IMG/VR virus record: IMGVR_UViG_3300042890_000093
Coordinates: 1 to 30,281 of that record
DNA: 30,281 nucleotides
Strand: one strand, 5' to 3'
From: a virus
Shown here: one piece after another, positions 8,417-22,950 of the stretch
Layout: every line of letters starts with the position of its first letter
Numbering within the stretch: position 1 is the first letter of the stretch
The notes under the pieces: generated by a model
Database searches by the model: none
The model's input: only the letters and a program-made list of their open reading frames with translations
What the model was told of the DNA's origin: nothing
Program-made: the position numbers and the translations under genes

Positions 8417-8433
8417 TCAAACAAACTAATCAT

Positions 8434-8463: not shown

Positions 8464-8486
8464 AGTCGTTTACCGAGAGGAAAGAA

Positions 8487-9059
8487 ATGCCAACAATTAT
8501 CACGGCTTCCGAGCTTAGATCAACGCTTGGCGTTTCTTCCTCTCTGTATTCGGACGCAGTTCTATCAGATATTATCGATAGTGCAGAGGCGATCATCCTG
8601 CCAATGCTCGTGACTTATTCAGTCGCCATCGATGCAGTCTCGCTTAACAATAACGTCGCTTACTTCTCAACAGTTCAGATGAACCCATTCGGAGAAGGTC
8701 AATCCGTAGTTATCAGCGGATGCGGTAGCCCTTTCAATGGCACTCGAACAATTACCACAGACTTACTCGATGACGATTCATTTTCAGCGGCCATTACTAA
8801 CGCTGACATCATCTCTAAGAACATCATCCCATCAGGGTTGGCTACCCTTACTGGTGCATCGACTTATGTCGGAAATAGCGCAGTAGAATCAGCCGTCCTA
8901 GTCGTCTCTGTCGAAATCTTCCAGAGTCGCACAGCAGCAGGTGGCCAGATCGAAGGCGTGGACTTTAGTCCAAGTCCGTTCAGGATGGGTCGCTCACTCT
9001 ACAATCGCTGCGTAGGTCTCTTAGGTTCACTCGTCGATGTCGGAACGATCGCCCAGTAA
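8487..9059 (+). CDS. Head-tail connector (adaptor) protein, phage A
   Basis: A 190-residue protein starting MPTIITASELRSTLGVSSSLYSD, with the N-terminal helix pair (DAVLSDIIDSAEAIILPML) typical of gp6-like adaptors that bind the portal from outside. An inserted beta-rich domain (about 55-125) precedes a conserved C-terminal helix region containing VEIFQSRTAAGGQIEGVDFSP and PFRMGRSL. B's copy (22995-23570) is nearly the same length and keeps these motifs. It is the first gene after the capsid hairpin and has a good ribosome site. Confidence 0.75.
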   Translation: MPTIITASELRSTLGVSSSLYSDAVLSDIIDSAEAIILPMLVTYSVAIDAVSLNNNVAYFSTVQMNPFGEGQSVVISGCGSPFNGTRTITTDLLDDDSFSAAITNADIISKNIIPSGLATLTGASTYVGNSAVESAVLVVSVEIFQSRTAAGGQIEGVDFSPSPFRMGRSLYNRCVGLLGSLVDVGTIAQ

Positions 9060-9448
9060 TGCCAGCCTCAACTATTCTTTCAGCCGTCCGCACTCCACTT
9101 GCCACAGCACTTGGATCAGTCGCAGCTAACGTCTTTTCATACGTACCAGAAAACGTACCAGTCCCGGCGGTCGTCCTGGTTCCATCTTCACCATATATGG
9201 AGTTCGACACGATCGGTAACAATACCTTTAAGTGCAAACTCAACTTCACTATATCTTGCTGTGTGGCTTACTCAAGCAATCCAGCATCGCTCGACAACAT
9301 CGAGCAACTCATCGAAAGCGTTGTCCTCGCCATTCCAGCAGGTTATGAAGTGAGCGATGTCCAACGTCCAACCGTCACACAAGTAGGCGCGAGCAATCTG
9401 CTAGTAGCCGATATCGTCGTTAGTACCCACTACACGCGAACAGTCTAA
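9059..9448 (+). CDS. Head-tail joining / tail terminator-like protein, phage A
   Basis: A 129-residue protein between the adaptor and tail tube genes, where small siphoviruses encode head-closure or tail-terminator proteins. It has an N-terminal amphipathic helix (ILSAVRTPLATALG), beta strands around AVVLVPSSPYMEF, and the conserved SLDNIEQLIESVVLAIPAG helix, a pattern seen in tail-terminator folds. B's homologue (23570-23956) keeps VPSSPY, LDNIEQL and IGASDIL. The exact role (neck or tail terminator) is uncertain. It overlaps the adaptor stop by one base. Confidence 0.6.
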   Translation: MPASTILSAVRTPLATALGSVAANVFSYVPENVPVPAVVLVPSSPYMEFDTIGNNTFKCKLNFTISCCVAYSSNPASLDNIEQLIESVVLAIPAGYEVSDVQRPTVTQVGASNLLVADIVVSTHYTRTV

Positions 9449-9457
9449 GGAGACAAA

Positions 9458-9859
9458 ATGCCAACAACAGTCATCACAGGTCGCGACATCTCGCTAACAA
9501 TCGATAGCAAGGCGTACGGCGATCAAACAACTTCAACAACACTAGCAACAGCACTAGAGCGCAACGCCTACGAGACAATCGATGGCAAAGTGTTCTTCGC
9601 GCTAGACACAACTGCAACCCTTTCAATCACCATGCTTGCTGACTGGGGCGCAACTAACTCACTCTGCGAGGCTATGTGGACTGCTGCATCATCAGCACCA
9701 AACACTTCACTTGCTTACACCTTCACAGCTGCCACAGGCGCAGTCTTCACAGGTAACGTTCTTCCAGTATTCCCAGATGCTTCTGGAACTGGTAAGGATG
9801 CTCAGGAAATCACATTCGTTCTACAGGGAACAGCAAAGCCAACCCTAACAATTTCGTAA
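9458..9859 (+). CDS. Major tail tube protein, phage A
   Basis: A 133-residue, Thr/Ser/Ala-rich beta protein starting MPTTVITGRDISLTID, with LADWGATNSLCEAMWTAA and TGAVFTGNVLPVFPDASGTGKDAQ. Composition, size and place just before the frameshifted tail chaperone identify it as the tail tube subunit. Phage B's protein is exactly the same length (133) and keeps MPTTVITGRD, LADWG and VLPVFP. A clear AAGGAGA ribosome site precedes it. Confidence 0.8.
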   Translation: MPTTVITGRDISLTIDSKAYGDQTTSTTLATALERNAYETIDGKVFFALDTTATLSITMLADWGATNSLCEAMWTAASSAPNTSLAYTFTAATGAVFTGNVLPVFPDASGTGKDAQEITFVLQGTAKPTLTIS

Positions 9860-9879
9860 TCTAACCAACGGGAGCAAAG

Positions 9880-10158
9880 ATGAAAAAAGCAATCACAATT
9901 AAATACCAGTCGGGGGATCAGGCTACTTATGTGGCCTATCCACCGGACTTCGCCAAATGGGAAGTGGCTACCAAGAAATCCATATCGGACTTCTCGGGAA
10001 TGTGGGACATCTTATTCGTAGCTCATAGCGCGATGAAGCGAGAAGCGGCAGGACAACCAGTCAAGCCACTCGAAGCATGGATGGAAAGCATCGAGGATGT
10101 AGACGTGGATGCTGATAGCCCAAAAGCCATAGCCGAGGAAGTATCAGCAGACTCTTAG
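9880..10158 (+). CDS. Tail assembly chaperone, zero-frame product (gpG-like), phage A
   Basis: A 92-residue protein with TYVAYPPDFAKWE and AHSAMKREAAGQPVKPLEAW, located between tail tube and tape measure genes where tail chaperones lie. The C-terminal part contains a slippery heptamer C CCA AAA (10119-10125), where a -1 shift adds a second domain. The ribosome site CGGGAGCAA (9869-9877) is complementary over nine bases to the loop of the hairpin after the capsid gene. B's short product is also 92 residues. Chaperones coat the tape measure during tail assembly. Confidence 0.8.
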   Translation: MKKAITIKYQSGDQATYVAYPPDFAKWEVATKKSISDFSGMWDILFVAHSAMKREAAGQPVKPLEAWMESIEDVDVDADSPKAIAEEVSADS

Positions 10159-10268
10159 TCGAGTTAGCCATCGCGACCCATATCCCTATGAGGGAGTGGG
10201 AATCGGCGGAAGATATTTTAACGGCGATCGAGATATTAGAGGAGCGTAATGGATCAGGCACAGGTTGA
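10119..10268 (+). CDS. Tail chaperone -1 frameshift extension (gpGT-like), phage A
   Basis: The -1 frame is closed by TAG at 10116-10118, opens exactly at the slippery CCCAAAA and runs to TGA at 10266-10268. It encodes VELAIATHIPMREWESAEDI and then LTAIEILEERNG, closely matching B's extension (VELAIATQIPMSEWQTAEQI...). Shifting after zero-frame residue 82 gives a 129-residue fusion. This is the gpG-gpGT arrangement conserved in siphoviruses. The extension has no start codon of its own near the slip. Confidence 0.85.
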   Translation, partial: PKSHSRGSISRLLVELAIATHIPMREWESAEDILTAIEILEERNGSGTG

Positions 10269-10710
10269 TGCTTACAATCGGAAAGAAATCCGAGAAGTAA
10301 TCAGAGCCTTTAAGGCCATGGACGAGAAGGCCGTCGAGGAAGCCAAGAAGGTTTCTGGCGCTCTCGCCGATTATGCTCTAGGTCAAATCCAGAAGGCTTC
10401 TGGTACTCGAACTGTGGCTACTAAAGTGGCAGTCCGTATTGCTCAAGGCGGCAAGGTTTCTAAGTCCTCTAAGGTCGGTGAGATCAGCCTGGGATTCGCT
10501 TCTCAGAGATTCTCTGGTGGAGCAAATACTAAGCAGCTCTGGGGTGGCATGGAGTTCGGCTCGAACAGGTTTAAGCAGTTCCCAGCTAGAACCCCACGAT
10601 TCAAGTCTGGTAACTATGGCTACTTCATCTATCCAACACTCAAGGCTATTCAGCCTTACATCATTAACGAATGGCAAGGCGCCTTCTCAAAGATACTTAA
10701 GGAGTTCTAA
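10249..10710 (+). CDS. Tail/neck protein between chaperone and tape measure, phage A
   Basis: A 153-residue protein with a charged helical N terminus (REVIRAFKAMDEKAVEEAKKV) and a C-terminal region with LWGGMEFGS and GYFIYPTL. Phage B's homologue (24764-25294) keeps WGSEYGS and GYWINP. The WG-x-EFGS motif resembles HK97 gp10-like neck proteins, although those usually lie before the tail tube gene. I would call it a neck or tail protein of unclear role. It starts inside the chaperone frameshift frame and overlaps the tape measure start by one base. Confidence 0.55.
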   Translation: MDQAQVDAYNRKEIREVIRAFKAMDEKAVEEAKKVSGALADYALGQIQKASGTRTVATKVAVRIAQGGKVSKSSKVGEISLGFASQRFSGGANTKQLWGGMEFGSNRFKQFPARTPRFKSGNYGYFIYPTLKAIQPYIINEWQGAFSKILKEF

Positions 10711-12074
10711 TGGCTGGAGATAGCAGAACCCTTAAACTCGCGATCCTTGGTGAAGTCAAAGACCTAAGCGCAAGCCTTACTAAAGGCTCTAAAGAGGTCA
10801 GCACATTCGGAGATAAGATCGGCAAGTTCGGCAAGATCGCTGGAGCCGCCTTCGCAGCTGCTGGCGTTGCCGCAGTCGCTTACGCTGGCAAGTTAGCCAT
10901 CGATGGAGTCAAGGCCGCGATCGAGGATGAGGCTGCACAGATACGCCTAGCAACATCCTTAAAGAACGTCACAGGGGCAACAGAAGCGCAGATAAGCGCA
11001 ACAGAGGATTACATCCTTAAGACTTCTCTGGCTAAAGGCGTCACAGACGATGAGCTTCGTCCGAGTTTAGATCGTCTAGTCAAAGCAACTAAAGATGTCG
11101 AAGCAGCCCAGAAGTTACAGACCATCGCCATTGATGTCGCGGCTGGTAGTGGTAAGAGTTTAGAAGCCGTCACTAATGCGATGGCTCGCGCAGCTGAGGG
11201 CAATACTGCATCGCTTGGTCGTTTAGGTATTGGTCTCTCCAAGGCTGAGTTAGCCTCAATGAGCATGGAAGAAATTACTGCCAAACTCGCACAGACATTC
11301 GAGGGGCAAGCCTCAAAGCAAGCCGATACATTCCAAGGCAAGATGGGTCGCCTCAAGATCGCCTTCGATGAAGGTAAGGAGACAGTCGGTTCATTCATTC
11401 TCGATGCCATTACTCCCATGGTTGATTTCATCGTCCAGAAGGTAGTACCGGGCGTCCAGAAGTTTATCGACTCAATCGGCGGCAAAGAGGGAATAGGCAA
11501 CGCGCTTACCAACTTCATCACAGTAGCCAAGTCAATCTTCATCCCAGTCTTCCAAGGTATCCAGTCAGCATTTAAGAACATCAAGAGCGCTGTAGAAGAT
11601 AACAAAGAGGAGTTTCAAGCCCTATTCGAGTTCCTCGGTAAGTACGTCGCTCCATTCTTAGGCGGAGTTCTCAAGATCGCGGTTCAAGGTTTAGGCATTG
11701 CCATTGGTATAGTGGTCGATTCAGTCGGAGCACTCATTCGTGGATTCCAGACACTCATCAGTCTAGGATCAAAGATCGGTGGTGCTATCGGTGGAATGTT
11801 CGGCGGTGGTCGAGCCGCTGGTGGCCCAGTCATGGGCGGTACAACTTATCTCGTAGGCGAGAAAGGCCCAGAACTATTTACGCCTTCAAGCTCAGGCAAG
11901 ATCATTCCTAATAATGCCTTAGGTGGATCCTCAGGCAATACAATCAACATTACAGTTAATGGGGCTATCGATCCTATCTCCACAGCTCGACAGATCACCC
12001 AGATTCTCAATCGTGAGGCAACACTCTCAGGCACGTTTAACAAGGTCGGAGCCTCGCTACTGGTGGGCGCATGA
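10710..12074 (+). CDS. Tape measure protein, phage A
   Basis: A 454-residue protein: a hydrophobic Ala/Gly segment near the N terminus (about 38-60), a helical region with SLEAVTNAMARAAEGNTASLGRLG, a hydrophobic mid-section, then a Gly-rich stretch and the hallmark YLVGEKGPELFTPSSSGKI motif near the C terminus. It sets tail length. It is short for the family; at about 0.15 nm per residue it suggests a tail near 70 nm (family rule, not measured). B's is 486 residues and retains the same domains. Confidence 0.9.
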   Translation: MAGDSRTLKLAILGEVKDLSASLTKGSKEVSTFGDKIGKFGKIAGAAFAAAGVAAVAYAGKLAIDGVKAAIEDEAAQIRLATSLKNVTGATEAQISATEDYILKTSLAKGVTDDELRPSLDRLVKATKDVEAAQKLQTIAIDVAAGSGKSLEAVTNAMARAAEGNTASLGRLGIGLSKAELASMSMEEITAKLAQTFEGQASKQADTFQGKMGRLKIAFDEGKETVGSFILDAITPMVDFIVQKVVPGVQKFIDSIGGKEGIGNALTNFITVAKSIFIPVFQGIQSAFKNIKSAVEDNKEEFQALFEFLGKYVAPFLGGVLKIAVQGLGIAIGIVVDSVGALIRGFQTLISLGSKIGGAIGGMFGGGRAAGGPVMGGTTYLVGEKGPELFTPSSSGKIIPNNALGGSSGNTINITVNGAIDPISTARQITQILNREATLSGTFNKVGASLLVGA

Positions 12075-13222
12075 CCTGGACTCCTAGGGCAACCATCTCG
12101 ATAAACGGAACTGATCGCAAGTCGATCACACTTTCAGATGTCCAGATATCTTATGGCAGAAGTTCAGTCTGGGAACAGGCTCGATCTTCCTATGCTCGTA
12201 TTTCAATTCTAAATACTGCTGGCACAGACTATGGCTTCGAGATGAACCAAGTGGTAGCCATCAAAGTTAAGAACGTTGCAAACGCAGACGTCACAATCTT
12301 TACAGGCAAGATCACTAGCGTCGATAACAACCTCGCAGGCTCAGGCACAATCGGGACTAATGCAGTTCAGACCATCACAGCCGTTGGCCCGTTCTCCCAG
12401 ATGTCTCGCAAGATCATTGGAGCATCAAACTGGTCTAAGGAGTTCGACACAGATCGCATGACTCGAATCTTCACAGATGCCGGGCAAACCATCGATGTCG
12501 TCGATAGCCCAGCGATCTATGAGTTCGCGGCTCGATCAGGCGAGCGAGCAGATGCCTATTCACTCGCAGCTTCATTCGCCCAGCAAGCCTTCGGATACAT
12601 CTATGAAACCAATCTAGGCAAGGTCGGCTTCGCCAATGAGTCTCGCAGAACCAATGATGCCAAGGCCAACGGATACACAGTCATCCCTAATGGTCACATT
12701 CTCTGGGGCAACGTATCAAGCCAGAAAACTCTGGCAGACATCCTTAATAACCTAATCTTTACTTATGACTCTGGCACAAAGACAGCCACAGATGCAACGA
12801 GTATCTCAGACTTCGGGCAGGTAGATGGATCGATTTCTACATCCTTGCACGATGGTGCAGATGCCCAACTCCAGGCTGATCGCTATGTAACCCTTCGAGC
12901 CTACCCAAGAACTTCTCTCAGCTCATTCACCATCCCAATCAACTCAACTAACGTCTCAGATGTTCTACGAGACTTCTATATCTCGATGAGCATGGGCGAG
13001 CCAATCGAGATCACAGCACTTCCAATCGCACTAAAGAACACGACTTATCGAGGCTTCGTCGAGGGCTATACCTTCTCGATCAATCAGTACGAGATGATCC
13101 TGACTCTCAATACAACCGACTATACCTACAGCTTCACACCTACTCGCTGGCAAGATGTCTCAGCCTCGCTTACATGGGCTACAGTCGGCGCTACGGTACA
13201 ATGGAACACTTACGATGACTAG
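12071..13222 (+). CDS. Minor tail protein (tail-tip/baseplate hub type), phage A
   Basis: A 383-residue protein overlapping the tape measure stop by four bases. The N terminus (WTPRATISINGTDRKSITL) and repeated beta segments resemble tail-tip hub proteins that follow the tape measure in siphoviruses. It contains VTIFTGKITSVDNN and a C-terminal PTRWQDVSASLTWATVG. B's homologue (26751-27992, 413 residues) keeps the W-T-P start and the Trp-rich end. It probably forms part of the tip complex that carries the fibres. Confidence 0.7.
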   Translation: MTWTPRATISINGTDRKSITLSDVQISYGRSSVWEQARSSYARISILNTAGTDYGFEMNQVVAIKVKNVANADVTIFTGKITSVDNNLAGSGTIGTNAVQTITAVGPFSQMSRKIIGASNWSKEFDTDRMTRIFTDAGQTIDVVDSPAIYEFAARSGERADAYSLAASFAQQAFGYIYETNLGKVGFANESRRTNDAKANGYTVIPNGHILWGNVSSQKTLADILNNLIFTYDSGTKTATDATSISDFGQVDGSISTSLHDGADAQLQADRYVTLRAYPRTSLSSFTIPINSTNVSDVLRDFYISMSMGEPIEITALPIALKNTTYRGFVEGYTFSINQYEMILTLNTTDYTYSFTPTRWQDVSASLTWATVGATVQWNTYDD

Positions 13223-13230
13223 GGGCAACA

Positions 13231-13788
13231 ATGGCAACAACGACTAACTTCGGCTGGACTACGCCTGATAACACAGGCTATGTCAAAGATGGCGCTCTGG
13301 CTATCCGTACCCTTGGTTCCGCCATTGACTCAACCCTTTACGACTTAGACCGGGTCGGGCAGGTGGTTCAGACTGTGACTTCTACTTTAACAGGTTCAAC
13401 TTCTAGCACTTATGCAGATGCTACAGATATGTCGGCAACGATCACTCCCACTAAAACGTCAAGCAAAGTTTTAATTACTATGAATTTTAATTGTCAAATC
13501 GATGGCAGAATCGATGACGGAGTGGCTTGGGCGAAGTTTAGAATTAACAAAGGAGCGACCCAACTTTATCAATTAAGCAACTTTGGAAATTATGCTACCT
13601 TCTCAACTGGCGCATTTTCATCATATATTGTAAATGGAAATAATACTTTAATTTATTTAGATTCCCCGGCAACAACATCTGCAACTACATATAAACTGCA
13701 ATTTGGACGATCTGGATCACTTGGTACTATTTCAATCAACGGCACTAATCAAGAAGGAACAGTCACATTACAAGAGGTGATCGTATGA
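13231..13788 (+). CDS. Minor tail / receptor-binding protein, phage A
   Basis: A 185-residue protein. The first ~45 residues (MATTTNFGWTTPDNTGYVKD, then GALAIRTLGSAIDSTLYDLD) form a module shared with B's 279-residue protein at 28002 and with many actinophage tail proteins. The remainder is unrelated to B and beta-rich. The 3' part (about 13440-13780) is visibly AT-richer than its surroundings, suggesting an acquired receptor-binding domain on a conserved anchor. Its place between tail tip and lysin supports an adhesion role. Confidence 0.65.
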   Translation: MATTTNFGWTTPDNTGYVKDGALAIRTLGSAIDSTLYDLDRVGQVVQTVTSTLTGSTSSTYADATDMSATITPTKTSSKVLITMNFNCQIDGRIDDGVAWAKFRINKGATQLYQLSNFGNYATFSTGAFSSYIVNGNNTLIYLDSPATTSATTYKLQFGRSGSLGTISINGTNQEGTVTLQEVIV

Positions 13789-14045
13789 TTAACATGAAAG
13801 CAATTCGATACTTACGCCCAGATGCAGAGTTCATCATGACTGACGATGATCCAAGCACGATCGTCTGGCACACAGAAGGCGTAACTACTCCTACAGCCAA
13901 GCAGATCAAAGATGCAATCAAAGCTATGGAAGCAGAAGAGGCAACTCTCATCGCCGCTAAAGCAGCTGCTAAGGCTTCGGCTATCGCTAAACTTGAGGCA
14001 CTTGGACTCAACCTCGATGAAGCACAGGCGATCATCGGACAATGA
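13785..14045 (+). CDS. Small tail-associated helical protein, phage A (86 aa)
   Basis: An 86-residue protein: a short N-terminal beta part (AIRYLRPDAEFIMTDDDPST), then an Ala/Lys/Glu-rich helix (KDAIKAMEAEEATLIAAKAAAKASA) and a final LEALGLNLDEAQAIIG helix. B's 69-residue counterpart (28841-29050) ends similarly with LLDRLGITADEAKLLL. Proteins of this kind often follow tail fibre genes and may be assembly chaperones or small tip components; function unproven. The start overlaps the previous stop. Confidence 0.6.
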   Translation: MINMKAIRYLRPDAEFIMTDDDPSTIVWHTEGVTTPTAKQIKDAIKAMEAEEATLIAAKAAAKASAIAKLEALGLNLDEAQAIIGQ

Positions 14046-14470
14046 AACCTATTCTATGCAAGGCTGGCCAACAATTAAGGGAACAGTTCGATGACTCCTT
14101 CCCTGATCGTGATAGGCGTTCCGATGGTTGGATCGGCGATCTCCGTCATTCAGCGCGTCCTTCTGACCACAATCCTGATCGAGAGACTGGAATTGTTAGA
14201 GCCATCGATGTCGATCGAGATGTCCATAAGTCAGGCAAGCCCGACCTCATGCCAGATATTGCAGATCAGATTCGACTCGCGGCCAAGGCTGGAGAAAAGC
14301 GAATTGCTTACATCATCTTCGCAGGACGAATTGCATCGTCTCGCATGGGCTGGCGCTGGAGACCTTACAAGGGATCTAATCCGCATAATGCCCATCTGCA
14401 TTGTTCTTTCACTAAAGCGGGCGATACAGATGGTTCGTTCTTTAATATCCCGATGCTAGGTGGTAAGTAA
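14042..14470 (+). CDS. Endolysin, M15-type peptidase, phage A
   Basis: A 142-residue protein with the zinc ligands of the M15 (VanY/L-alanyl-D-glutamate peptidase-like) family: SDHNPD (H43), AIDVD (D56) and HNAHLH (H118 or H120, the H-x-H). [11 protein letters not shown] is typical of actinophage members. It would cut peptide cross-links or stem peptides of peptidoglycan. It has no signal peptide and no recognisable cell-wall-binding domain, so it likely needs a holin. B has a CHAP-type enzyme at this position instead. Overlaps neighbours on both sides. Confidence 0.8.
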
Positions 14471-15498
14471 TGGGTCGCGTAACTATAAGCTCTAATAACC
14501 TATTCCCCGGTCCTAAAGGCGAAAAGGGAGATCAGGGAGATCCAGGTGGCCCACCTGGTCCACAGGGTCCAGAAGGTCCACAGGGGCCACAAGGTCCTCA
14601 AGGCCCACAAGGTATTCAAGGCACTCAAGGAAACCCAGGCGCACAAGGCGCAGAAGGCCCAATCGGTTCAACTGGACTAAAGGGCGATAAGGGCGACAAA
14701 GGCGATACTGGAGCAACAGGCGCGACTGGTGCTAAAGGCGACACAGGAGATACTGGAGCGCAAGGCCCATCTGGCGTAGTCACAGTCAATGCTCCACTTA
14801 CCAATGCTGGAACTTCTAGTGCTGCCAATCTTTCAATCTCAGCTGGTACTACTTCTGCCGCTGGTGCGTTGCAACTGACCGACTCAGTAGCCTCGACATC
14901 GACGACTACTGCTGCGACTCCTAATGCGGTCAAGACTGCTTATGACTTTGCAGCAACACGTCAGCCAATAGTTAAAAGAAACTCAGGAGGATATTTTAGA
15001 AGCCCTATAAGCACTTACGCTACTTTTACAGTCACAAATAATAGAATGTATTTATCGCCCATTTTTGTAGATCAATCAACTACTTTTGATCGAATTGCTT
15101 GTAGAGCAGACACAGGGTTTTCAGGCTCATCAACTGTAAGGCTTGGAATCTACGATAGCGATGCAAATAACCAGCCAAGCACTTTAGTCCTTGATGCTGG
15201 AACCGTTGCATTTACTGGCGTCGCAAGCCAGGAAATTACAATTAGTCAGACTTTATCTACAGGACTTTATTGGTTAGCATTCTGCCAACAAGGAACAGCA
15301 CCTACTACGGCGACCTATAGTGGAAATAGTGGTTCTGCAACAATTTTTAATTACTTAATTCCTTTTTCTGGTGGTGGTTCTCTAAACGCAAGCAACATTA
15401 TTGCTTACACATCAAATCCGCACACTGGTGCATTTCCTAGCACAATCACTTCTGGTGTGGCATCGGCCACTGCTTTCGTATGGTTAAGGACTGCATAA
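14470..15498 (+). CDS. Collagen-like tail fibre, phage A
   Basis: A 342-residue protein with a short N terminus, about 29 G-X-Y triplets (residues 14-100), a linker ([20 protein letters not shown] and onward) and a beta-rich C-terminal domain from about residue 162. Collagen-like stalks trimerise and present a receptor-binding tip. The linker is nearly identical in protein to B's fibre, and from 14953 the DNA is identical as far as B can be read. The tip (15000-15480) is AT-richer than the stalk. The stop overlaps the next ATG. Confidence 0.85.
14509..14772 (+). repeat. Collagen-like G-X-Y coding repeat
   Basis: Short 9-base units such as ggtccacag, ggtccagaa and ggcgataag encode Gly-X-Y triplets, early ones rich in GPQ, later ones in GDK, GAT and GDT. 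Such tracts expand and contract by slippage. The B fibre has only a few triplets (about 30004-30054). Confidence 0.85.
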
Positions 15499-15603
15499 TG
15501 GAAAAGATGATTACCTACGGCATAGGCGGCTATGACCCAACCAAGCCAAATAACAACATCGTTGAAATCAAAGACATCCCAGATACGGAGACAGAATGAA
15601 CAT
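14953..15603. repeat. Shared segment linking phage A to phage B (fibre tip, 33-aa gene, holin start)
   Basis: The left edge (14953-14999) is identical to 30235-30281 and the right edge (15477-15603) to 1-127. The 651-bp segment covers the fibre tip, the 33-aa gene and the first 8 bases of the holin-like gene. The middle (15000-15476) is seen only once in the window, so its presence in both phages is inferred. Upstream of 14953 the two copies differ mostly at third codon positions. Confidence 0.85.
15498..15599 (+). CDS. Small 33-aa protein after the fibre gene, second copy
   Basis: Identical to 22-123 and in the same setting: one-base overlap with the fibre stop and four-base overlap with a holin-like gene. 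No recognisable domain. Identity at DNA level, against strong divergence of all other A/B gene pairs, means it was exchanged recently together with the fibre tip, or is one physical locus shared in assembly. Confidence 0.6.
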   Translation: MEKMITYGIGGYDPTKPNNNIVEIKDIPDTETE

Positions 15604-15778
15604 CAAAGCAATGGCAGCAAGCTGGGCTCGCTCATTTATGGCGGCAGCCCTAGCTCTTTACATGGCAGGCGAGACAGATCCAAAGACACTAGCAATGGCA
15701 GGCGCAGCTGCCGTCGCTCCAGTGATCTTGCGCTGGCTCAATCCAAAAGATCAAGCTTTCGGGTTATTGGGGAAGTGA
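15596..15778 (+). CDS. Holin-like membrane protein, phage B
   Basis: A 60-residue protein with two hydrophobic helices (about 14-24, FMAAALALYMA; and 31-46, LAMAGAAAVAPVILRW) separated by GETDPKT, then a W-L-N-P-K-D tail. The short turn and the R-W-L-[ND]-P-x-D ending are common in small phage membrane proteins annotated as holins. It follows the 33-aa gene by an ATGA overlap and is followed by a lipoprotein gene with similar overlap, so the three form a lysis-type cassette. The first 8 bases belong to the shared segment; sequence then departs from A. Confidence 0.65.
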   Translation: MNIKAMAASWARSFMAAALALYMAGETDPKTLAMAGAAAVAPVILRWLNPKDQAFGLLGK

Positions 15779-15993
15779 CTCGGAAGCTACTGTCGGCAGC
15801 TCTAGGGTTATCGCTTTCGCTAGGGCTGTCGGCATGTGGCTATCAGGGTTGGACGCGGTATGAATGCCAAGAATTCGACAACTGGCAAAAGCCTAAGTGC
15901 AATCCGCCGCAATGTAAGGCTCAGGGAACATGTACTGAAGACATATTTGGAGAGGATCCCAGTGGCTTCACATCAAAGAAGGCTGACAAATGA
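15775..15993 (+). CDS. Small lipoprotein, phage B
   Basis: A 72-residue protein from GTG (GTGA overlap with the holin-like stop). The N terminus (MTRKLLSAALGLSLSLGLSAC with GTG read as Met) is a lipoprotein signal with lipobox L-S-A-C. The mature part is Cys/Pro-rich (YECQEFDNWQKPKCNPPQC, then CTEDIFG), a pattern I associate with small phage lipoproteins near lysis genes in aquatic phages. It would be anchored outside the inner membrane. A spanin-like, lysis or superinfection-exclusion role is possible; none is shown. Phage A has no equivalent. Confidence 0.6.
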   Translation: MTRKLLSAALGLSLSLGLSACGYQGWTRYECQEFDNWQKPKCNPPQCKAQGTCTEDIFGEDPSGFTSKKADK

Positions 15994-16258
15994 GCAGCTC
16001 AAAGCTCGGCTCATCGTATTCATCGGCGTATGTCTTGCGCTCACTTTTGCATTCTCTGTCGCTGGGATGCTGTACGCGCTGATCTTTGTGACTCAGCCGC
16101 TTGGCGATCAAGCTCCCAATGATCGAGCATTCATCGAGCTTCTTTCGACTCTGACAATCTTCTTGACTGGCGCACTTGGATCAGTCTTGGCATCAAATGG
16201 ATTGAAAGACAAGCCAAGATCATCGGCAGACACGCCGAAAGACACGCAGGATTCTTGA
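15962..16258 (+). CDS. Two-span membrane protein (holin-like), phage B
   Basis: A 98-residue protein from GTG, preceded by GGAGAGGA. It has two clear membrane segments (about residues 17-42, RLIVFIGVCLALTFAFSVAG onward; and 58-78, FIELLSTLTIFLTGALGSVL) joined by TQPLGDQAPNDRA, and a polar, charged C-terminal tail. This topology and the LT-x-FLTG motif recur in phage membrane proteins near lysis genes. Longer upstream in-frame starts run through the lipoprotein gene and are less likely. It may be a second holin or pinholin; unproven. Confidence 0.6.
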   Translation: MASHQRRLTNEQLKARLIVFIGVCLALTFAFSVAGMLYALIFVTQPLGDQAPNDRAFIELLSTLTIFLTGALGSVLASNGLKDKPRSSADTPKDTQDS

Positions 16259-16283
16259 CCTTGTCAGAGTCTTGCTTCATGCT
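16255..16283 (+). promoter_or_regulatory. Candidate early promoter, phage B
   Basis: TTGACC (16255-16260), a 17-base spacer and CATGCT (16278-16283). A start about 7 bases downstream would begin the RNA at the GGGAGCGAGCC arm of the leader hairpin (16291). Phage A has TTGACC-N16-CATTCT at the same position. The -10 is weak. Confidence 0.3.
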
Positions 16284-16290
16284 CTTACTT

Positions 16291-16356
16291 GGGAGCGAGC
16301 CTTGCCACGGGTCAGGCGAAATGCAGGGCTTGCTCCCCTAACAGAATCGGGAGCAA
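16291..16356 (+). promoter_or_regulatory. Leader with two mutually exclusive hairpins covering a ribosome site, phage B
   Basis: Hairpin 1: GGGAGCGAGCC (16291-16301) with GGCTTGCTCCC (16327-16337), 11 pairs with one G-T. Hairpin 2: TTGCTCCC (16330-16337) with GGGAGCAA (16349-16356), 8 perfect pairs around an 11-base loop. The second hairpin hides the Shine-Dalgarno of the ATG at 16360; the first would free it because both use the same middle strand. This is the layout of a translational RNA switch or attenuator. I recognise no known riboswitch class in it. Confidence 0.5.
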
Positions 16357-16359
16357 CAA

Positions 16360-16515
16360 ATGGCAATTGAGCAAATCATCGGCTTTGCGGTACTCGCACA
16401 GCTAGCAATCTCCACTCTTTTGTATTCAATGGGATACAGGGATGGCAAGTCGGTCGGATACCATCATGGCCGATCTGTCGGCATGGCAATGGGCAAGAAT
16501 AAGGCGGTCAAATAA
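16360..16515 (+). CDS. Small single-span membrane protein (51 aa), phage B
   Basis: A 51-residue protein starting MAIEQIIGFAVLAQLAISTL with a hydrophobic N-terminal span (about 5-24), then a basic, Gly-rich tail (RDGKSVGYHHGRSVGMAMGK). It has the same length and design as A's 1570-1725 and is also the first gene of the early DNA module. The two-turn G-x-x-x-G-x-x-x-G spacing in the tail is notable. Function unknown. Translation may be controlled by the alternative hairpins just upstream. The stop abuts the next start (TAAATG). Confidence 0.65.
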   Translation: MAIEQIIGFAVLAQLAISTLLYSMGYRDGKSVGYHHGRSVGMAMGKNKAVK

Positions 16516-17142
16516 ATGGCCGGATTCTTGGATGGATATGAAGATGTCGCAGCTCGCATCAAAAGACTGCATTCTACTTTTCCGACAAATCGAGTCGAGA
16601 CATCGATCGTCGATTTCAATGCTCAAGCCGGATACATCCTCATCGAGTGCCGGATATTTCGTGAATATGAAGATGAAAAGCCATCAGCGATTGATTACGC
16701 ATTCGGACGGGTTGAATCTTACAATCCCAGCATGAAGCGATGGTTTGTCGAAGATACAGTCACATCAGCAATCGGACGCTGTGCCGGACTATTGCTCGGA
16801 TCTGAGACAAGGCCGACCAAGCAAAACATGGAGCAAGTCGAGACCATGCCAGCGGCATTTGTGAGCAAGATCGAGGATGATCCATGGTCAAAGCCATTCA
16901 CTGAAGATGGATTTGCTACAGCTGGCAGCACCATTGAGGAGATTGCTTCACAGCTTGGCGATGAGCTCATCGGAGAAGCTCCGATCTGTAAACATGGGCA
17001 TCGGCTACTCAAAGAAGGCACAAGTCCAAAGACGGGCAAGCCATATCGAGGACATGTCTGCATCGAAAAGGTCAAGGCAAATCAATGTCCGGCAATTTGG
17101 TACAACCTCACAGCTGATGGCAAATGGAAGGCTCATGACTGA
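16516..17142 (+). CDS. ERF/Rad52-like single-strand DNA annealing protein with zinc-finger tail, phage B
   Basis: A 208-residue homologue of A's 1993-2688. It keeps YEDVAARIKRLHSTFP at the N terminus, AGYILIECRIFREY, and DTVTSAIGRCAGLLL where A has CETSAIGRALANAG. The C terminus keeps CKHGHRLLKEGTSPKTGKPY, GHVCIE and QCPAIWYN, a likely zinc-binding domain with the G-K-P-[YW] turn. Likely role: ssDNA binding or annealing in phage replication and recombination. The assignment rests on motif likeness, and pairwise identity with A is modest outside these motifs. Confidence 0.55.
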   Translation: MAGFLDGYEDVAARIKRLHSTFPTNRVETSIVDFNAQAGYILIECRIFREYEDEKPSAIDYAFGRVESYNPSMKRWFVEDTVTSAIGRCAGLLLGSETRPTKQNMEQVETMPAAFVSKIEDDPWSKPFTEDGFATAGSTIEEIASQLGDELIGEAPICKHGHRLLKEGTSPKTGKPYRGHVCIEKVKANQCPAIWYNLTADGKWKAHD

Positions 17143-17342
17143 TGGCAGACATGGAGATGATCAAGATCGCCACAGGCGAGCGCACACGATTCATGTCTGA
17201 TGGATCAATCGTCAAAGATCAAGTCGCTCCACCAAAGATTGAATGGTGCGATCGATGCGAGACATTCAAGCGATTTGATGGCGGTCGATATGACACAGTC
17301 ATGGGATCACCTGAGCTGTGGTATTGCGAGCTCTGCAAGTGA
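17142..17342 (+). CDS. Small zinc-ribbon protein, phage B (66 aa)
   Basis: A 66-residue protein with WCDRCETF (about residues 35-42) and a C-terminal WYCELCK, two Cys pairs about 27 residues apart that would form a zinc ribbon. The first half contains ATGERTRFMSDGSIV. It takes the place of A's 2688-2918 protein between the ERF-like and nuclease genes, so the two are probably functionally equivalent. The start overlaps the upstream stop (TGATGG). Function unknown. Confidence 0.65.
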   Translation: MADMEMIKIATGERTRFMSDGSIVKDQVAPPKIEWCDRCETFKRFDGGRYDTVMGSPELWYCELCK

Positions 17343-17344
17343 AG

Positions 17345-17839
17345 ATGAAAGTCTCGTACGATGAGATGCTCAAATCGCTATATGTAGCAATTGAGCGAAT
17401 CAAAGCCATTGATGGTCGTCCAGATCATTCATCGAGGTACGACAAAAGTCTGTCATTTCACGAATATGTCTGCCAGATCGCAGAATCGATCTGCGCTGAA
17501 ATGGTCGTGGCACGATACTTTGGCAATGACAAATTCGAGCCGACGATCAACACATTTAAGACACAAGCTGATGTCGGATCAAGGCTTGAAGTCAAGTGGA
17601 CGAAATATGACTCAGGGGCATTGATCATCAGTGAGAGCGATCGCAATACTGACATCGCTGTGCTCGTCACAGGCAGATCGCCAGTCTATGAAATCAAGGG
17701 ATGGATACCGGTATCGATCGCCAAAGATCAACGCTGGAAGAGACGCGAGAAGCCATCCTTTTGGGTTGAACAGTACAATCTACATCCAATCGAGAATCTG
17801 AAAAGGAGCTCCCATGGAGATGCTGCGCTTTCAATGTAG
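17345..17839 (+). CDS. PD-(D/E)XK-type nuclease, phage B
   Basis: A 164-residue protein starting MKVSYDEMLK. Candidate catalytic residues follow the PD-(D/E)XK order: a helix with E52 (SICAEMVVARYFG), D76 in TQADVGSR, then RLEVKW (E82-x-K84), and a following strand (DIAVLVTG). It occupies the resolvase position of A but is strongly diverged and lacks the C-terminal zinc ribbon. Likely cuts branched or phage-replication DNA; substrate unknown. A GTG at 17339 overlapping the previous stop is an alternative start. Its 3' end overlaps the next gene by 26 bases. Confidence 0.6.
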   Translation: MKVSYDEMLKSLYVAIERIKAIDGRPDHSSRYDKSLSFHEYVCQIAESICAEMVVARYFGNDKFEPTINTFKTQADVGSRLEVKWTKYDSGALIISESDRNTDIAVLVTGRSPVYEIKGWIPVSIAKDQRWKRREKPSFWVEQYNLHPIENLKRSSHGDAALSM

Positions 17840-17969
17840 GGTCGAAAAGAAGGTCACAAATCATGGCGTGATGCTGGATCAAGTCAAGCTTGGCGACAAT
17901 ATGGTGCTCGTCCAATGTCTTGGATGTGGCGTCATGGGCGTCATGGACAGAATTGATGCCTGTGGATAA
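17814..17969 (+). CDS. Small Cys-pair protein, phage B (51 aa)
   Basis: A 51-residue protein starting MEMLRFQCRVEKK, with QCLGCGVMG (C-x-x-C) near residue 35 and another Cys at 8 and near the end. A strong AAAAGGAG ribosome site precedes it. It occupies the FmdB-like position of A, and may be a reduced zinc-binding protein. Its last codons and stop (TGT GGA TAA) form a perfect DnaA box on the minus strand, so coding and origin sequence overlap here. Confidence 0.6.
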   Translation: MEMLRFQCRVEKKVTNHGVMLDQVKLGDNMVLVQCLGCGVMGVMDRIDACG

Positions 17970-18010
17970 CCTGTGGACGACACGCAGGAGACGCGCTCAA
18001 CTTATCCACA
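17961..18010. other. Candidate replication origin: cluster of DnaA boxes, phage B
   Basis: TGTGGATAA (17961-17969) and TTATCCACA (18002-18010) are perfect consensus DnaA boxes in opposite orientation, and TGTGGACGA (17972-17980) is a near match in between. All lie within 50 bases at the early/late gene boundary. With no phage replication initiator or polymerase seen, recruitment of host DnaA is a reasonable reading. No clear AT-rich unwinding region is next to it, which weakens the case. Phage A shows no such cluster at the matching site. Confidence 0.5.
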
Positions 18011-18030
18011 TTCTTGACTCATCCTTGACA

Positions 18031-18432
18031 GTGCCGCTACCGTCCTGCTCTGCAAGCGAGCGGCTGAAGCCGTATAGCTCGCTAAGGAGACAGGCGGTTA
18101 GGGGAGCTCTTTGCCTATTGGTAGGCTCGATTGTCTTACAGATGCAACCCGTACACGCAGCAACACAAGCTGATCAATATCGTCTATATGCTCATTCAAG
18201 GATCATTGATTGGAAGCAATTTAATTGCTTTGCCAAGATCATTCACAAAGAATCCAGATGGAATCCAAAGGCTCGCAATGGCTCACACTTTGGGTTAGGT
18301 CAGATGAGATCACAGTGGTATCGCAATCTTGATCCATATCGTCAGATTGATCAGACAATCAAATACATCACAATTCGTTATCAAACGCCATGCAAGGCTT
18401 GGGCATTTCATGAGCGTAAGGGTTGGTACTGA
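18031..18432 (+). CDS. Exported lytic-transglycosylase-like protein, phage B
   Basis: Read from GTG at 18031, a 133-residue protein with a basic N-region (RLKPYSSLRRQAVR), hydrophobic core (GALCLLVGSIVLQM) and a V-H-A-A cleavage site near residue 43. The mature part has HKESRWNPKARNG (candidate catalytic E74), FGLGQMR and a C-terminal W-A-F-H-E-R-K-G-W, matching Slt-type lytic transglycosylases and A's 3542-3991. The start is uncertain: a TTG at 18118 is an alternative, and in-frame codons also extend further upstream. It lies before HNH and terminase, not with the endolysin. Confidence 0.65.
   Translation: MPLPSCSASERLKPYSSLRRQAVRGALCLLVGSIVLQMQPVHAATQADQYRLYAHSRIIDWKQFNCFAKIIHKESRWNPKARNGSHFGLGQMRSQWYRNLDPYRQIDQTIKYITIRYQTPCKAWAFHERKGWY
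18055..18083 (+). other. Nested hairpin in the signal-peptide region, phage B
   Basis: AGCGAGC (18055-18061) pairs perfectly with GCTCGCT (18077-18083), and inside it GGC-TGAA-GCC (18062-18071) forms a second stem. AAGGAGA follows at once (18084-18090) and TTGACA lies upstream (18025-18030). Phage A has different hairpins at the equivalent place. Possibly a structured leader; function unknown. Confidence 0.35.
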
Positions 18433-18761
18433 TGAGCCTGCACTCACAGCGTAAGAGCAACAGCGCACAGTGGAAGAAGATACGCTTGAGGATACTGACA
18501 AGAGATGGGCGTGAATGCTATTGGTGCGGCATGGATGCAGACACAGTCGATCACATCATCCCAGTGGCAAAGGGTGGACTGGACATCGATGACAATCTTG
18601 TGGCAGCTTGTCGCAAATGCAATTTCAGTAAGCGTGACAAGTTACCGGATGAGTTCATCATGGAGCGCATGAGACGGGGTAGTCTTTTTCCTGAGACTGA
18701 TTCCACCCAACCCATCCTCCGAGGTTTTAATTCACCACCAAACGACTCAAGAAGGCATTGA
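18432..18761 (+). CDS. HNH endonuclease, phage B
   Basis: A 109-residue protein from an ATG overlapping the previous stop. It has the HNH layout: CYWC (C29, C32), TVDHIIP (D40-H41), an N in IDDNLVAAC, and C-x-x-C-N (C60, C63, N64). The Cys pairs would hold a structural zinc. Position directly before the large terminase repeats phage A and points to a role in terminase DNA cutting (known for HK97-like phages, inferred here). Confidence 0.9.
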   Translation: MSLHSQRKSNSAQWKKIRLRILTRDGRECYWCGMDADTVDHIIPVAKGGLDIDDNLVAACRKCNFSKRDKLPDEFIMERMRRGSLFPETDSTQPILRGFNSPPNDSRRH

Positions 18762-18762
18762 A

Positions 18763-20271
18763 ATGGATCAAGAAGGCACAAGAAGGCTCAGACTGGTTCA
18801 AGATGGCTCAGATCGGCTCACAGAGCCTGTGGAGACTATTCCTGAGAAGCTTTATGGCAACCCAATGCCCAGAATCCACTCAAAGTTGCATCCTGAGCTG
18901 CCTACGCGTGGCCAAGAGCTGATCGATTTCAGCAATTCAATTGGATTCCCATTGCTCCCATGGCAGGAATGGCTGGCTTTGGAATCGCATCGCTACAAAA
19001 GTGACGGCCGTTGGCTAAACCCATTGGTCCAGTTGGTGGTCGCTAGGCAACAAGGAAAGACGACATTCATGAAGCAAAGAATCCTCATGGGATTATTTGA
19101 GTGGAATCAAGGATTGCAAATCGGTACAGCTCATCGATTGACCACATCGCTGGAGACATTCAGGGATCTTGTGCAGGCGATCGAGAGCAATGACGGACTG
19201 GCCAAGCAAGTCAAGCGCATTCGCTGGGCTCACGGATCTGAGGAGATCGAGACTTTGTCCGGCAATCGGTACATGGTCAAGGCTGGCGCATCAGCTGCGC
19301 GTGGTATCTCAAAGCCTGCGACTGTCCACATCGATGAGACCCGAGAGCTCAAGGATGAATCTACATGGGCATCCTTGCGATACACGATGATGGCGGCTGA
19401 AAATCCACAGCTCTGGTCATATTCCAATGCTGGTGATCAGCATTCATTGGTGCTCAATCAGCTGCGAGAGCGTGGCTTGGCAGCGGCATCCGGTGCGGCC
19501 GATGACATTGGATATTTTGAGTGGTCGAGCGATTATGACTTAATAGACGATTCCCCTAAATTTTGGGCAGGGGCAGCGATGGCAAATCCTGCGCTCGGTC
19601 ACACTGTCCACATCGACAATCTTAGAGCTGTGATGAATGATCCACCGGATGTCGTGCGTACCGAAGTCTTGTGCCGTTGGGTTCAGACAATTGATTCGGC
19701 GATTCCAGCTGGAGAATGGGCAGAATGTGCGACCGATGATTTAGATTTAGACTTGGAGAAAACTGTCTGGCTCGGGCTCGATTGTTCACCGGATAGGCGC
19801 GACGCGGCTTTGGTCGCAGCTCAGCGCATTGATGATGATCAATTCGTCGTCAAGCTACTGCACACATGGCACAATGCAATCTCACTCGATGACAAGGCCA
19901 TCGCAAATGATGTCGCCGATTACTATCGCGACATGCTTGTCGAAGTCGTGGCATTCAGTAAGCGCACATCGTCAGCTGTGGCCAGTAGGCTTGTGCCAGC
20001 TGGCATCCCAATCATGGACATCGATGGAGCTTTGTACGGGCAAGCCTGTGATGAATTTCTAGGAGCGGTCACATCGAAGAGACTCAGACACATCAATCAA
20101 CCCGAATTGACGAAGCAAGTCTTGTCAGCGGCCAAGCTGAAATTTGGGGATGGTGGATGGACTATCGGACGCAGAGCATCACAGAGCACTGTCTGCGCGA
20201 CGGTTGCATGTGCGCTGGTCACGCATTTCGCGACACGCCAAGAGACGGATCTTGACATCATGGTCTTTTGA
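18763..20271 (+). CDS. terL: Terminase large subunit, phage B
   Basis: A 502-residue protein with ATPase motifs VARQQGKTT (Walker A type, about 93-101) and TVHIDETREL (Walker B), and nuclease-domain LGLDCSPDRRDAAL. It aligns along its length with A's terminase: shared LLPWQ, TAHRLTTS/TAHKLTTS, SNAGDQHS and LRERGLAAA. It powers DNA packaging and makes the genome-end cuts. No small terminase is recognisable nearby. Confidence 0.95.
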   Translation: MDQEGTRRLRLVQDGSDRLTEPVETIPEKLYGNPMPRIHSKLHPELPTRGQELIDFSNSIGFPLLPWQEWLALESHRYKSDGRWLNPLVQLVVARQQGKTTFMKQRILMGLFEWNQGLQIGTAHRLTTSLETFRDLVQAIESNDGLAKQVKRIRWAHGSEEIETLSGNRYMVKAGASAARGISKPATVHIDETRELKDESTWASLRYTMMAAENPQLWSYSNAGDQHSLVLNQLRERGLAAASGAADDIGYFEWSSDYDLIDDSPKFWAGAAMANPALGHTVHIDNLRAVMNDPPDVVRTEVLCRWVQTIDSAIPAGEWAECATDDLDLDLEKTVWLGLDCSPDRRDAALVAAQRIDDDQFVVKLLHTWHNAISLDDKAIANDVADYYRDMLVEVVAFSKRTSSAVASRLVPAGIPIMDIDGALYGQACDEFLGAVTSKRLRHINQPELTKQVLSAAKLKFGDGGWTIGRRASQSTVCATVACALVTHFATRQETDLDIMVF

Positions 20272-20285
20272 TTGTAACGCTGGGG

Positions 20286-20297
20286 CAAAATTGGCGC
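20286..20297 (+). promoter_or_regulatory. Weak leaderless -10 candidate before the portal gene, phage B
   Basis: CAAAAT (20286-20291) lies 6 bases before the portal ATG at 20298, and the 26-base gap has no Shine-Dalgarno. This mirrors TACAAT before A's portal. The only nearby TTGACA (20252-20257) is too far upstream for standard spacing, so support is low. Confidence 0.2.
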
Positions 20298-21383
20298 ATG
20301 GGATTATTTGATCGACTCACTGCAGCCAAGCCGATTGATAACATCGTCGATGCGTCTTTGGCTCCGGTCAATTCACTGGATTCAATTGGTGCGCCATATT
20401 TCGGCGGCATCCAATCAGCATCTCGATCTGAGGCAATGGGCGTGCCGGTAATCGCACGCGCTCGCGGAATCATTTGCTCCACTGTAGCGTCATTGCCATT
20501 GGAGACAAAAAACAAATCCACAAGAGAGACAGTCTCATCAGCTCGCGTGATCAATCAGCCTGATCCACGAATCACGGGCGCAGAATTTTGGGCATGGATC
20601 GCTGAGGATTTGCTATTTCGTCCAGCGGCCTATGCAGTCGTGACACAGAGATATGCAGACACTGGACGCATTCAAGCAATGGAGCGTGTTGCACCTGAGC
20701 GTGTAGGCGTCTTTACAAATGCCAATGGCACACAAATCGAAAGCTACACAGTCGATGGAATTACAATCGCCCCTGAGCAGCTTGTGGTCTTTGGCAACAT
20801 GCAAGAAGGATTGCTTAATCGCGCAGGCCGTACAGTAAGAGCTGCACACGCTTTGGAGCGCGCCGCTTACGATTTCGCATTGAATCCTGCGCCACAAATG
20901 GTCGTGAAAACAAATGGCACAAACTTGCCGAAGGAGCGACTCCAGGCACTCAAAGAAACATTCTTGAATCGCACATCAAAGTCAGTCACAGTGCTCAATG
21001 CAGATGTATCGCTAGAGACTGTCGGATTTGATCCAAAGCAATTGCAGATGAACGAAGCGAGACAGTATTTGGCTTTGGAGCTTTGCAGAGCGATCGGATT
21101 ACCGGCATGGTTCGCATCAGCTGATCCATCGAGCACGACTTATTCCAACGCTGTAAATCAGAGGCGTGACCTCATCGATTTCTCGATTCGTCCGATCCTC
21201 ACAATCATTGAACAAAGGCTCTCACTTACGGATTTCACCCCAGCCTCAGAATATGTGCGTTTTGATTTGGACGATTTCTTGCGCGGCAATCCACTTGAAA
21301 GAGCGCAAGTGTACGAAATCCTGAATCGCATTGGCGCAATGACAATTGAAGAAATCAGAGAAGAAGAGGACATCATCGGATGA
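20298..21383 (+). CDS. Portal protein (HK97 family), phage B
   Basis: A 361-residue protein homologous to A's portal: EAMGVPVIARARGIICSTVA, VINQPDPRI, EGLLNRAGRTVRAAHALERA, and C-terminal FDLDDFLRGNPLERAQVYEI. The start MGLFDRL at 20298 is chosen over an in-frame ATG at 20268 because it aligns with A's MGLKDFF and the earlier one lies in the terminase stop region. Forms the dodecameric DNA gate. Overlaps the protease-capsid gene by four bases. Confidence 0.93.
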   Translation: MGLFDRLTAAKPIDNIVDASLAPVNSLDSIGAPYFGGIQSASRSEAMGVPVIARARGIICSTVASLPLETKNKSTRETVSSARVINQPDPRITGAEFWAWIAEDLLFRPAAYAVVTQRYADTGRIQAMERVAPERVGVFTNANGTQIESYTVDGITIAPEQLVVFGNMQEGLLNRAGRTVRAAHALERAAYDFALNPAPQMVVKTNGTNLPKERLQALKETFLNRTSKSVTVLNADVSLETVGFDPKQLQMNEARQYLALELCRAIGLPAWFASADPSSTTYSNAVNQRRDLIDFSIRPILTIIEQRLSLTDFTPASEYVRFDLDDFLRGNPLERAQVYEILNRIGAMTIEEIREEEDIIG

Positions 21384-22930
21384 AGCTAACAACACCAATC
21401 ACGATCACTGCAGCCGATTCAGAATCGCGCACGATCTCAGGCCGCATCGTTGCATTCGATGAGCCTGCAAACGCAAGCACAGGCAAAGTCGTATTTGCTA
21501 AAGGCTCAATTGATCCAGCTCCGGTATTTCTTAACCTAGAGCACGATCGCACACGCAGAATTGGCAAGAGCATGGAGATGTCAATGGATGGCGATAGCGC
21601 GATCAATGCGACATTCAAGATCAGCACCACACAAGCTGGCAATGATGCACTCATCGAAGCAATGGATGGTCTGCGCGATGGATTTAGCGTGGAGCTTGCC
21701 GTCGAGGATTATGTGCAGGAAAAGGGATACATGAAAGTCTTGAAGGCCGAGCTCACAGGAGTTGCGCTTGTCTCAGAGCCTGCAGTGCGATCAGCTCGCG
21801 TTGCAGAAGTCGCAGCGACAGAAGACGATGAAGATTCCGAATCCACACCGGATGAGGATGCAACACCAACACCAACAACAGAAGGAGACGAAGTGGAAAA
21901 CACCGTCACAGACGCGGCAGCCGTTACAGAGACGGTTGAAGCCGCACAGTCAGTCACAGCCGCCAGCACCACTGGCGTATTCACAGCAAAGCCACGCTTA
22001 GATTTCTCAGCTACAAAGCAGCTTGAGATGACAATCAAGGCAGCAATGGGATCTGAAGATGCACGCGCTTATGTACGCGCAGCAGCAGACACCACAGACA
22101 ATGCGGGCTTGGTGCCAACACGCCAGCTCACCACCGTGATCAACGGGCTTGCAAATGCAACACGCAGCAACATCGATGCAATCAGCCGTGGCACATTGCC
22201 TGACGCTGGCATGACATTCGAGATCCCAAAGATCACACAGCTCCCATCAGTAACCGAAGAAGCCGAAGGCGGCACAGTTGCAGATGTCGATCAAAACTCA
22301 GAATTTTTGAGTGTAACTGTGAAGAAGTACAGCGGATCTCAGACATTCTCCGTTGAGCTTTTCGATCGCTCTTCACCACTCTTTGTGGACGAGCTCATGA
22401 GAAATATGGCTGCACAGTACGCAAAGGTCACAGACACTGCAGTGAATGCAGCATTGATCTCAGGTGCATCAGCTGACGCAACAACAACCACAACATATCC
22501 AACAGCTGCCGAATTACTCGGAATCGTTGCTCGCGGCGCTGCATCAGTTTATTCAGGCACACAAGGATTTGCTCGCAATATCATCATGAACACATCCCAA
22601 TGGGCAAATGTCATGACACTGAATGATTCAGGCCGTCCAATCTACAATGCTGCACAGCCACAAAATGCTGGCGGCGCAGTGCGTCCAGATTCAATCCGCG
22701 GCAATGTCGCTGGTCTTGATCTTTATGTCACAGCCAACACAGCTGCAACAACAGACGCAGATGGATCAATCTTGATCGTCAATCCTGATGCATACACATG
22801 GTATGAGTCACCAACATTCCAGTTGCGCGCAGATGTAATTGCAACCGGACAAATCTCAATCATGATGTATGGCTATGGAGCCATCGCCACGAAAATTGGC
22901 TCAGGAGCGTTCAAGAATAACAAGGCGTAA
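21380..22930 (+). CDS. Prohead protease-major capsid protein fusion, phage B
   Basis: A 516-residue fusion like A's. The protease part has candidate catalytic His55 (LNLEHDRTRRIG) and Ser103 (LRDGFSVE). A long acidic linker rich in D, E, T and P follows (about 145-180). The capsid part has FSVELFDRSSPLFVDELMRN, an N-terminal PRLDFSATKQLEM region and ends MMYGYGAIATKIG. An internal AAGGAG-N5-GTG at codon 172 (21882-21895) could give a 345-residue capsid protein. The linker is the least conserved part, yet the ribosome site inside it is kept. Confidence 0.92.
   Translation: MKLTTPITITAADSESRTISGRIVAFDEPANASTGKVVFAKGSIDPAPVFLNLEHDRTRRIGKSMEMSMDGDSAINATFKISTTQAGNDALIEAMDGLRDGFSVELAVEDYVQEKGYMKVLKAELTGVALVSEPAVRSARVAEVAATEDDEDSESTPDEDATPTPTTEGDEVENTVTDAAAVTETVEAAQSVTAASTTGVFTAKPRLDFSATKQLEMTIKAAMGSEDARAYVRAAADTTDNAGLVPTRQLTTVINGLANATRSNIDAISRGTLPDAGMTFEIPKITQLPSVTEEAEGGTVADVDQNSEFLSVTVKKYSGSQTFSVELFDRSSPLFVDELMRNMAAQYAKVTDTAVNAALISGASADATTTTTYPTAAELLGIVARGAASVYSGTQGFARNIIMNTSQWANVMTLNDSGRPIYNAAQPQNAGGAVRPDSIRGNVAGLDLYVTANTAATTDADGSILIVNPDAYTWYESPTFQLRADVIATGQISIMMYGYGAIATKIGSGAFKNNKA
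21882..21895 (+). promoter_or_regulatory. Internal ribosome site and GTG start for free capsid protein, phage B
   Basis: AAGGAG (21882-21887), a 5-base spacer and in-frame GTG (21893-21895), in the linker between protease and capsid domains. Motif, spacing and resulting product length (345 residues) match A (346), although the surrounding linker has diverged. Confidence 0.6.
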
Positions 22931-22950
22931 TCGCCTGACTTAGACATCGG

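Follow-up and report, generated by a model that had tools for sequence, protein, structure and literature searches.

A 30-kb virus record as a probable assembly chimera of two ~15-kb miniphages sharing a fibre-tip block

Introduction

Exchange of the receptor-binding tip of tail fibres is a well-known kind of event. Modular exchange of this type has been described among the Caudoviricetes, for example in the Alteromonas phages (PMC10579305), and recent domain shuffling has been documented for receptor-binding proteins (PMC10684548). Regions common to different genomes are also the places where de Bruijn assemblers break contigs, leaving end sequences that are maxK long (PMC10914622). Among freshwater phages, a genome length of ~15 kb forms a marked size peak (PMC6802176).

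The IMG/VR record IMGVR_UViG_3300042890_000093, which is classed as linear, is analysed here over its entire 30,281 bases (the window), and a search for its own genome returned no further contigs. The original prediction held that two otherwise diverged phages in this DNA share a fibre tip with sharp identity boundaries, acquired together with a gene of 33 amino acids by recent exchange and placing both phages on the same host receptor. In the following, these proposals are compared with the record and with related loci (labelled L).

Two phage gene sets in one record

The record contains two co-linear siphophage gene sets lying head to tail, A at 1–15603 and B at 15477–30281. In both sets the order is terminase, portal, capsid-protease fusion, tail genes, tape measure, fibre-like genes, lysin, fibre, and then the holin-like and small genes. 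When the two halves of the record were compared, the identity between A and B was ~25% to 70% at the protein level and 66–84% in DNA where matches exist, except for the fibre linker (88%) and the exact blocks described below.

1 to 15603, +: genome unit of phage A, opened downstream of the tip (gene families; linkage in L005, L022 and L037)
1 to ~4239, +: A-right, with holin-like, metallo-phosphoesterase and RusA-like genes
~4240 to 15603, +: A-left, with terminase, portal, capsid-protease fusion, tail and fibre genes
15604 to 30281, +: phage B genome unit without the tip body (co-linear with A; L058 runs from B-left through another tip to B-right)
15604 to 18706, +: B-right
18721 to 30281, +: B-left
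18707 to 18720, +: probable B cos overhang of 14 bases, a 3′-overhang (CCAACCCATCCTCC), from the contig ends of B-type relatives

The relatives of A and B are units of 14–16 kb, and three of them, all B-type, are closed circularly at 14.6–14.7 kb (L069, L088 and L161). L005, L022 and L037 lead from A-left across the tip to window position 1 and onward, L005 being A-like and ~83–93% identical in most parts. The closest relative of B, L058, goes from B-left (~90% identical) through a different tip into B-right. The record is most likely two complete, distantly related ~15-kb phages and not one 30-kb virus. In another relative, L025 (2–12366), the matches to the A right arm run forward and then inverted within one contig, which resembles a palindromic assembly artefact.

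Eleven listed B-type contig ends fall exactly at 18706 and represent at least nine distinct contigs, since L067 and L140 are one contig and L095 and L164 are another; L164 starts at 18721. The window and L004, a separate record, both cross the probable cos site without a break, which suggests that the assembled DNA was ligated or replicating rather than only that of packaged virions.

The fibre genes and the edges of the shared block

14470 to 15498, +: phage A tail-fibre gene, 342 aa, with a collagen-like stalk, a Phage_fiber_2 repeat (residues 127–164) and a C-terminal tip (Pfam and PHROG tail-fibre families)
14776 to 14952, +: A fibre linker, differing from that of B at 21 of 177 bases and 2 residues
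14953 to 15495, +: fibre tip, 181 aa, a predicted beta-sandwich (AlphaFold2, Foldseek); 15000–15476 is present once
15499 to 15600, +: 33-aa gene, conserved right-hand anchor, with homologues after the tip in 27 loci (strict motif)
15596 to 15778, +: B holin-like gene, an open reading frame of 60 aa, 100% identical to L058
29579 to 29920, +: gene preceding the B fibre, 113 aa, of the PHROG 1084 / L-shaped tail fibre assembly family; missing upstream of the A fibre
29917 to 30281, +: B fibre gene, open at the record end, with a short collagen-like stalk unlike that of A
30058 to 30234, +: B fibre linker
30235 to 30281, +: start of the A-type tip (47 bases) on the B fibre, where the record ends
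1 to 127, +: contig start, the last 127 bases of the shared block (fibre gene end, 33-aa gene and first 8 bases of the holin-like gene), an assembler end overlap
14953 to 14958, +: putative left crossover interval, identical in A, B and L058
15573 to 15603, +: putative right crossover interval, 31 bases identical in A, B and L058

The A fibre exceeds the gathering scores of both PF01391 (E 2e-12, 47.1 bits, cut-off 27.2) and PF03406 (E 3.5e-11, 42.9 bits, cut-off 22), placing it among Phage_fiber_2 / collagen-like tail fibres. The sequence comparisons behind the original prediction were reproduced. Over the 59 linker codons (14776–14952 against 30058–30234), A and B differ at 21 bases and two residues, and from 14953 the identity becomes exact, 14953–14999 being equal to 30235–30281 over 47 bases. 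Such a run would be expected ~0.2% of the time if the 88% linker identity simply continued. Over the same 47-base stretch, the 18 pairs of relatives in which the linkers are at least 85% alike and the tips differ average 40–60% identity, and L058 is 48.9% identical to B over 30235–30281. A and B differ at 14952, and B and L058 at 14959 (= 30241), which bounds the left crossover interval.

At the right end, 15477–15603 is equal to 1–127, with C against G at the next base, as had been described. The step at 15603/15604 is real as the first difference between A and B; the length of 127 bases comes from the assembler, at the side of the contig start. Furthermore, position 15603 is not supported as a breakpoint, since it limits the crossover from one side and the comparison with L058 allows any position in 15573–15603. 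Immediately before 15573, the 33-aa gene of L058 is a different one (NNNIVEELDIPD against NNNIVEIKDIPD), and immediately past 15603 it is A that diverges. The right 127 bases carry the A-type signature EIKDIPD, which is absent from L058. The A alternative of the holin-like gene starts at window position 120. A family search with the B holin-like gene gave no match, and the 33-aa peptide had no match in named phages.

From 15573 to 17885, 6 of 2,313 bases differ between B-right and L058, all of them within 15849–15895. With the left arm at ~90% and the right arm at 99.7% identity, the arms on either side of the B tip differ in history as judged from L058.

Evidence for an assembly chimera

Within the 30,281 bases, a single 127-mer occurs twice (positions 1 and 15477), and every 128-mer is unique. 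Exact end overlaps of similar length are carried by the related circular contigs (127 bases in L088 and 123 each in L069 and L161). Given how de Bruijn assemblers end contigs, this single repeat identifies base 1 as the place where the right arm of A exits the block shared with B. The record thus has an exact end overlap of length k, and its arms are joined differently in relatives, in L005, L022 and L037 for A and in L058 for B. We consider it likely that this record combines two complete ~15-kb miniphages in an assembly chimera, in which the shared block most likely derives from recent homologous exchange.

The chimera would have formed if A and B were present together in the sample and near-identical over 14953–15603, from the linker end to the 8th base of the holin-like gene. 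A de Bruijn assembler with k=127 would have entered the shared block from A and exited into B, and the other arm of A would have been left starting with a 127-base overlap. The overlap at the left end is 47 bases, stopping at the contig end 30281, and not 127, and the simple k=127 picture does not account for this stop. Two tips in the B population, giving a branch at base 30282, would explain a record that ends 47 bases into the block. Exact scans found no other record with the B-left end (30188–30220 region) or the A-right start, so the B-left/tip and tip/A-right joins of this sample are not visible.

Tip swapping among the relatives

Across 35 sequences (595 pairs), linker identity and tip identity are uncorrelated (r = -0.08); the history of the tip is independent of that of its neighbour. 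Where the linkers of a pair are at least 85% alike and the tips no more than 65% (18 pairs), identity drops at 14948–14971 from 83–93% to 40–51%, with the step at 14948–14959, coinciding with the end of the Phage_fiber_2 repeat. In 500 pairs with low tip identity it climbs again from 15476, to 66–89%. All these pairs belong to related loci and do not count as independent events. On both sides of the tip, the conserved flanks show identity steps that recur in the family. The lack of correlation, together with the step recurring at the linker end, indicates from sequence comparison that these freshwater-type miniphages swap tips habitually. L033 and L034 were considered as a second case like A and B and were rejected, as their backbones are also ~95–98% alike and only the linker differs.

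In 75 B-type loci (a few being two cuts of one contig), the fibre and the 33-aa gene are missing, and the lysin leads directly to the holin (29047–30281, 15579–15625). Within the B lineage the fibre module is carried by L058 and also, judging by the 33-aa motif, by L095/L164. The module is an optional insert in the B lineage. A tentative extension is that the tip is a dedicated swap cassette, in which the Phage_fiber_2 linker and the 33-aa gene/holin ribosome-binding site would serve as paired homology arms, so that the tip may be exchanged across lineages and the whole fibre module gained or lost between lysin and holin.

Proposed recent exchange of the tip, and alternatives

That the tip is common to the two phages holds for its edges, both of which are exact (47 and 127 bases); the interval 15000–15476 occurs once only, and the tip body of B is missing from the record. 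Because the record is best read as a chimera through the shared block, it is not evidence that both copies are identical throughout. The proposed recent exchange of the tip and the 33-aa gene between diverged backbones is nevertheless probably supported, as L058 has another tip and 33-aa gene and L005 has those of A-type. Compared with A, the tip and the 33-aa gene are 93.4% and 99% identical in L005, against 57% and 83% in L058. A and L006 represent a natural, uncollapsed case, with tips 85% and lysins ~59% identical, the L006 lysin and stalk being unrelated.

In the proposed mechanism, an A-type tip and 33-aa gene would have taken the place of an L058-like tip in the lineage of B by homologous exchange, with crossovers inside 14953–14958, in the conserved Phage_fiber_2 linker, and inside 15573–15603, in the conserved 33-aa gene/holin ribosome-binding site. 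Accordingly framed, B would carry the whole A tip. A is favoured as the donor side, with L005 carrying the A-type tip and 33-aa gene; as an A-type tip is found in L006 too, a different phage may have been the actual donor.

The chimera might also have arisen with no full exchange of the tip, if B shares only the first 47 and the last 127 bases with A as conserved anchors and has a tip body of its own. The single copy of the tip body is compatible with this, as is a right anchor conserved family-wide at 66–89% identity, and a polymorphism in B at 30282 would explain the stop of the record. However, the right 127 bases are exact and include the EIKDIPD signature that L058 lacks, and the left 47 bases extend beyond the usual family step, into a stretch where unrelated tips are ~40% identical. 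Furthermore, B with its own tip body would have assembled beyond 30281. We regard this explanation as unlikely.

Alternatively, the record could be a real molecule, either a natural co-integrate of A and B or a hybrid phage with the left arm of A and the right arm of B. The record L004 (5,559 bases, dataset 3300042894) is 100% identical to 13508–19066 and has the same A-left/tip/B-right join; being assembled in another dataset, this join is a caution against the chimera reading, and the differing histories of the two arms in L058 could likewise be taken to favour a hybrid. On the other hand, the relatives are single units of 14–16 kb, three of them circular, and no packaged double genome of 30 kb with two cos sites would be expected. 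A hybrid is disfavoured because B-right, in the window and in L004, runs across the probable cos into the terminase start of B itself and not into that of A. A natural hybrid combined with a chimera at cos was rejected, as the longest exact match between A and B in the cos region is 11 bases. A real molecule is accordingly improbable. It is hardly credible that no recent exchange took place and that strong purifying selection held the tip in both lineages, for although the linker differences are nearly all synonymous (19 of 21 leaving the residue unchanged or nearly so, with 2 residue changes), such selection leaves synonymous changes, of which the 47 and 127 bases have none, and tips are the most variable part in the relatives, 41–92% identical to that of A in a 35-tip alignment.

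The tip fold and the host receptor

13231 to 13788, +: second fibre-like gene of A (PHROG tail fibre); relatives match its N-terminus only (to ~13328)
28002 to 28841, +: second fibre-like gene of B; matches of relatives break at ~28181–28346

The AlphaFold2 model of the tip, made from a 35-row alignment, has a mean pLDDT of 90.3 and a pTM of 0.87. Its best Foldseek matches among solved structures are a virion protein of cyanophage A4 (9jwb_Z) and the tail tip of mycobacteriophage Bxb1 (9d93_Pa); weaker matches include carbohydrate-binding modules such as CBM36, and the viral library returned collagen-repeat phage proteins. On the predicted fold, binding of the tip to a glycan on the host surface is plausible. 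A contig of 92,665 bases from Lake Pavin (L207), binned as a Propionibacteriales MAG, has a relative of the tip (42%) close to its end, which may belong to a prophage or to a misbinned virus.

The suggestion that the shared tip places A and B on the same host receptor is not borne out, as the second fibre-like genes differ between A and B and vary among the relatives, and 75 B-type loci lack the fibre. With their conserved N-termini and variable C-termini, these genes (13231–13788 and 28002–28841) form a second likely site of receptor-binding swaps.

Comparison with known systems

The analysis corrects a public virus record, in that one 30-kb "virus" becomes two 15-kb ones. It also illustrates how a genuine gene exchange may lead to a misassembly in which one of the two copies is lost from view. 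Furthermore, it points to a family of abundant small phages in which the swapping of fibre tips, with narrow crossover intervals, can be traced across many samples.

Compared to tip exchange in other Caudoviricetes, the locus has the same conserved stalk or linker, the same exchangeable C-terminal tip, and a near-identical tip on distantly related backbones. It differs in three respects. First, the phages are actinophage-like miniphages of ~15 kb. Second, the segment exchanged has a conserved 33-aa gene at its end. Third, the B copy is only partly visible.

Compared to de Bruijn contigs broken at shared regions (PMC10914622), the record has the same exact k-length end overlap and a break at the shared region, whereas here the wrong arms are joined into a double-genome record and the left overlap is 47 bases, not k. 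A and B resemble the freshwater "miniphages" (PMC6802176) in their size of ~15 kb and their environmental metagenome source, a membership that is assigned by size and gene content. Arthrobacter phage Decurro and its relatives (Decurrovirus, 15.5 kb) are similar in size and have the same gene order, with terminase, portal, capsid-protease fusion, tail, lysins, holin and an HNH gene at the end. The identity is low, the capsid N-terminus being ~42% identical over ~28% of the protein, and, unlike A and B, Decurro has no annotated collagen fibre or 33-aa gene between lysin and holin.
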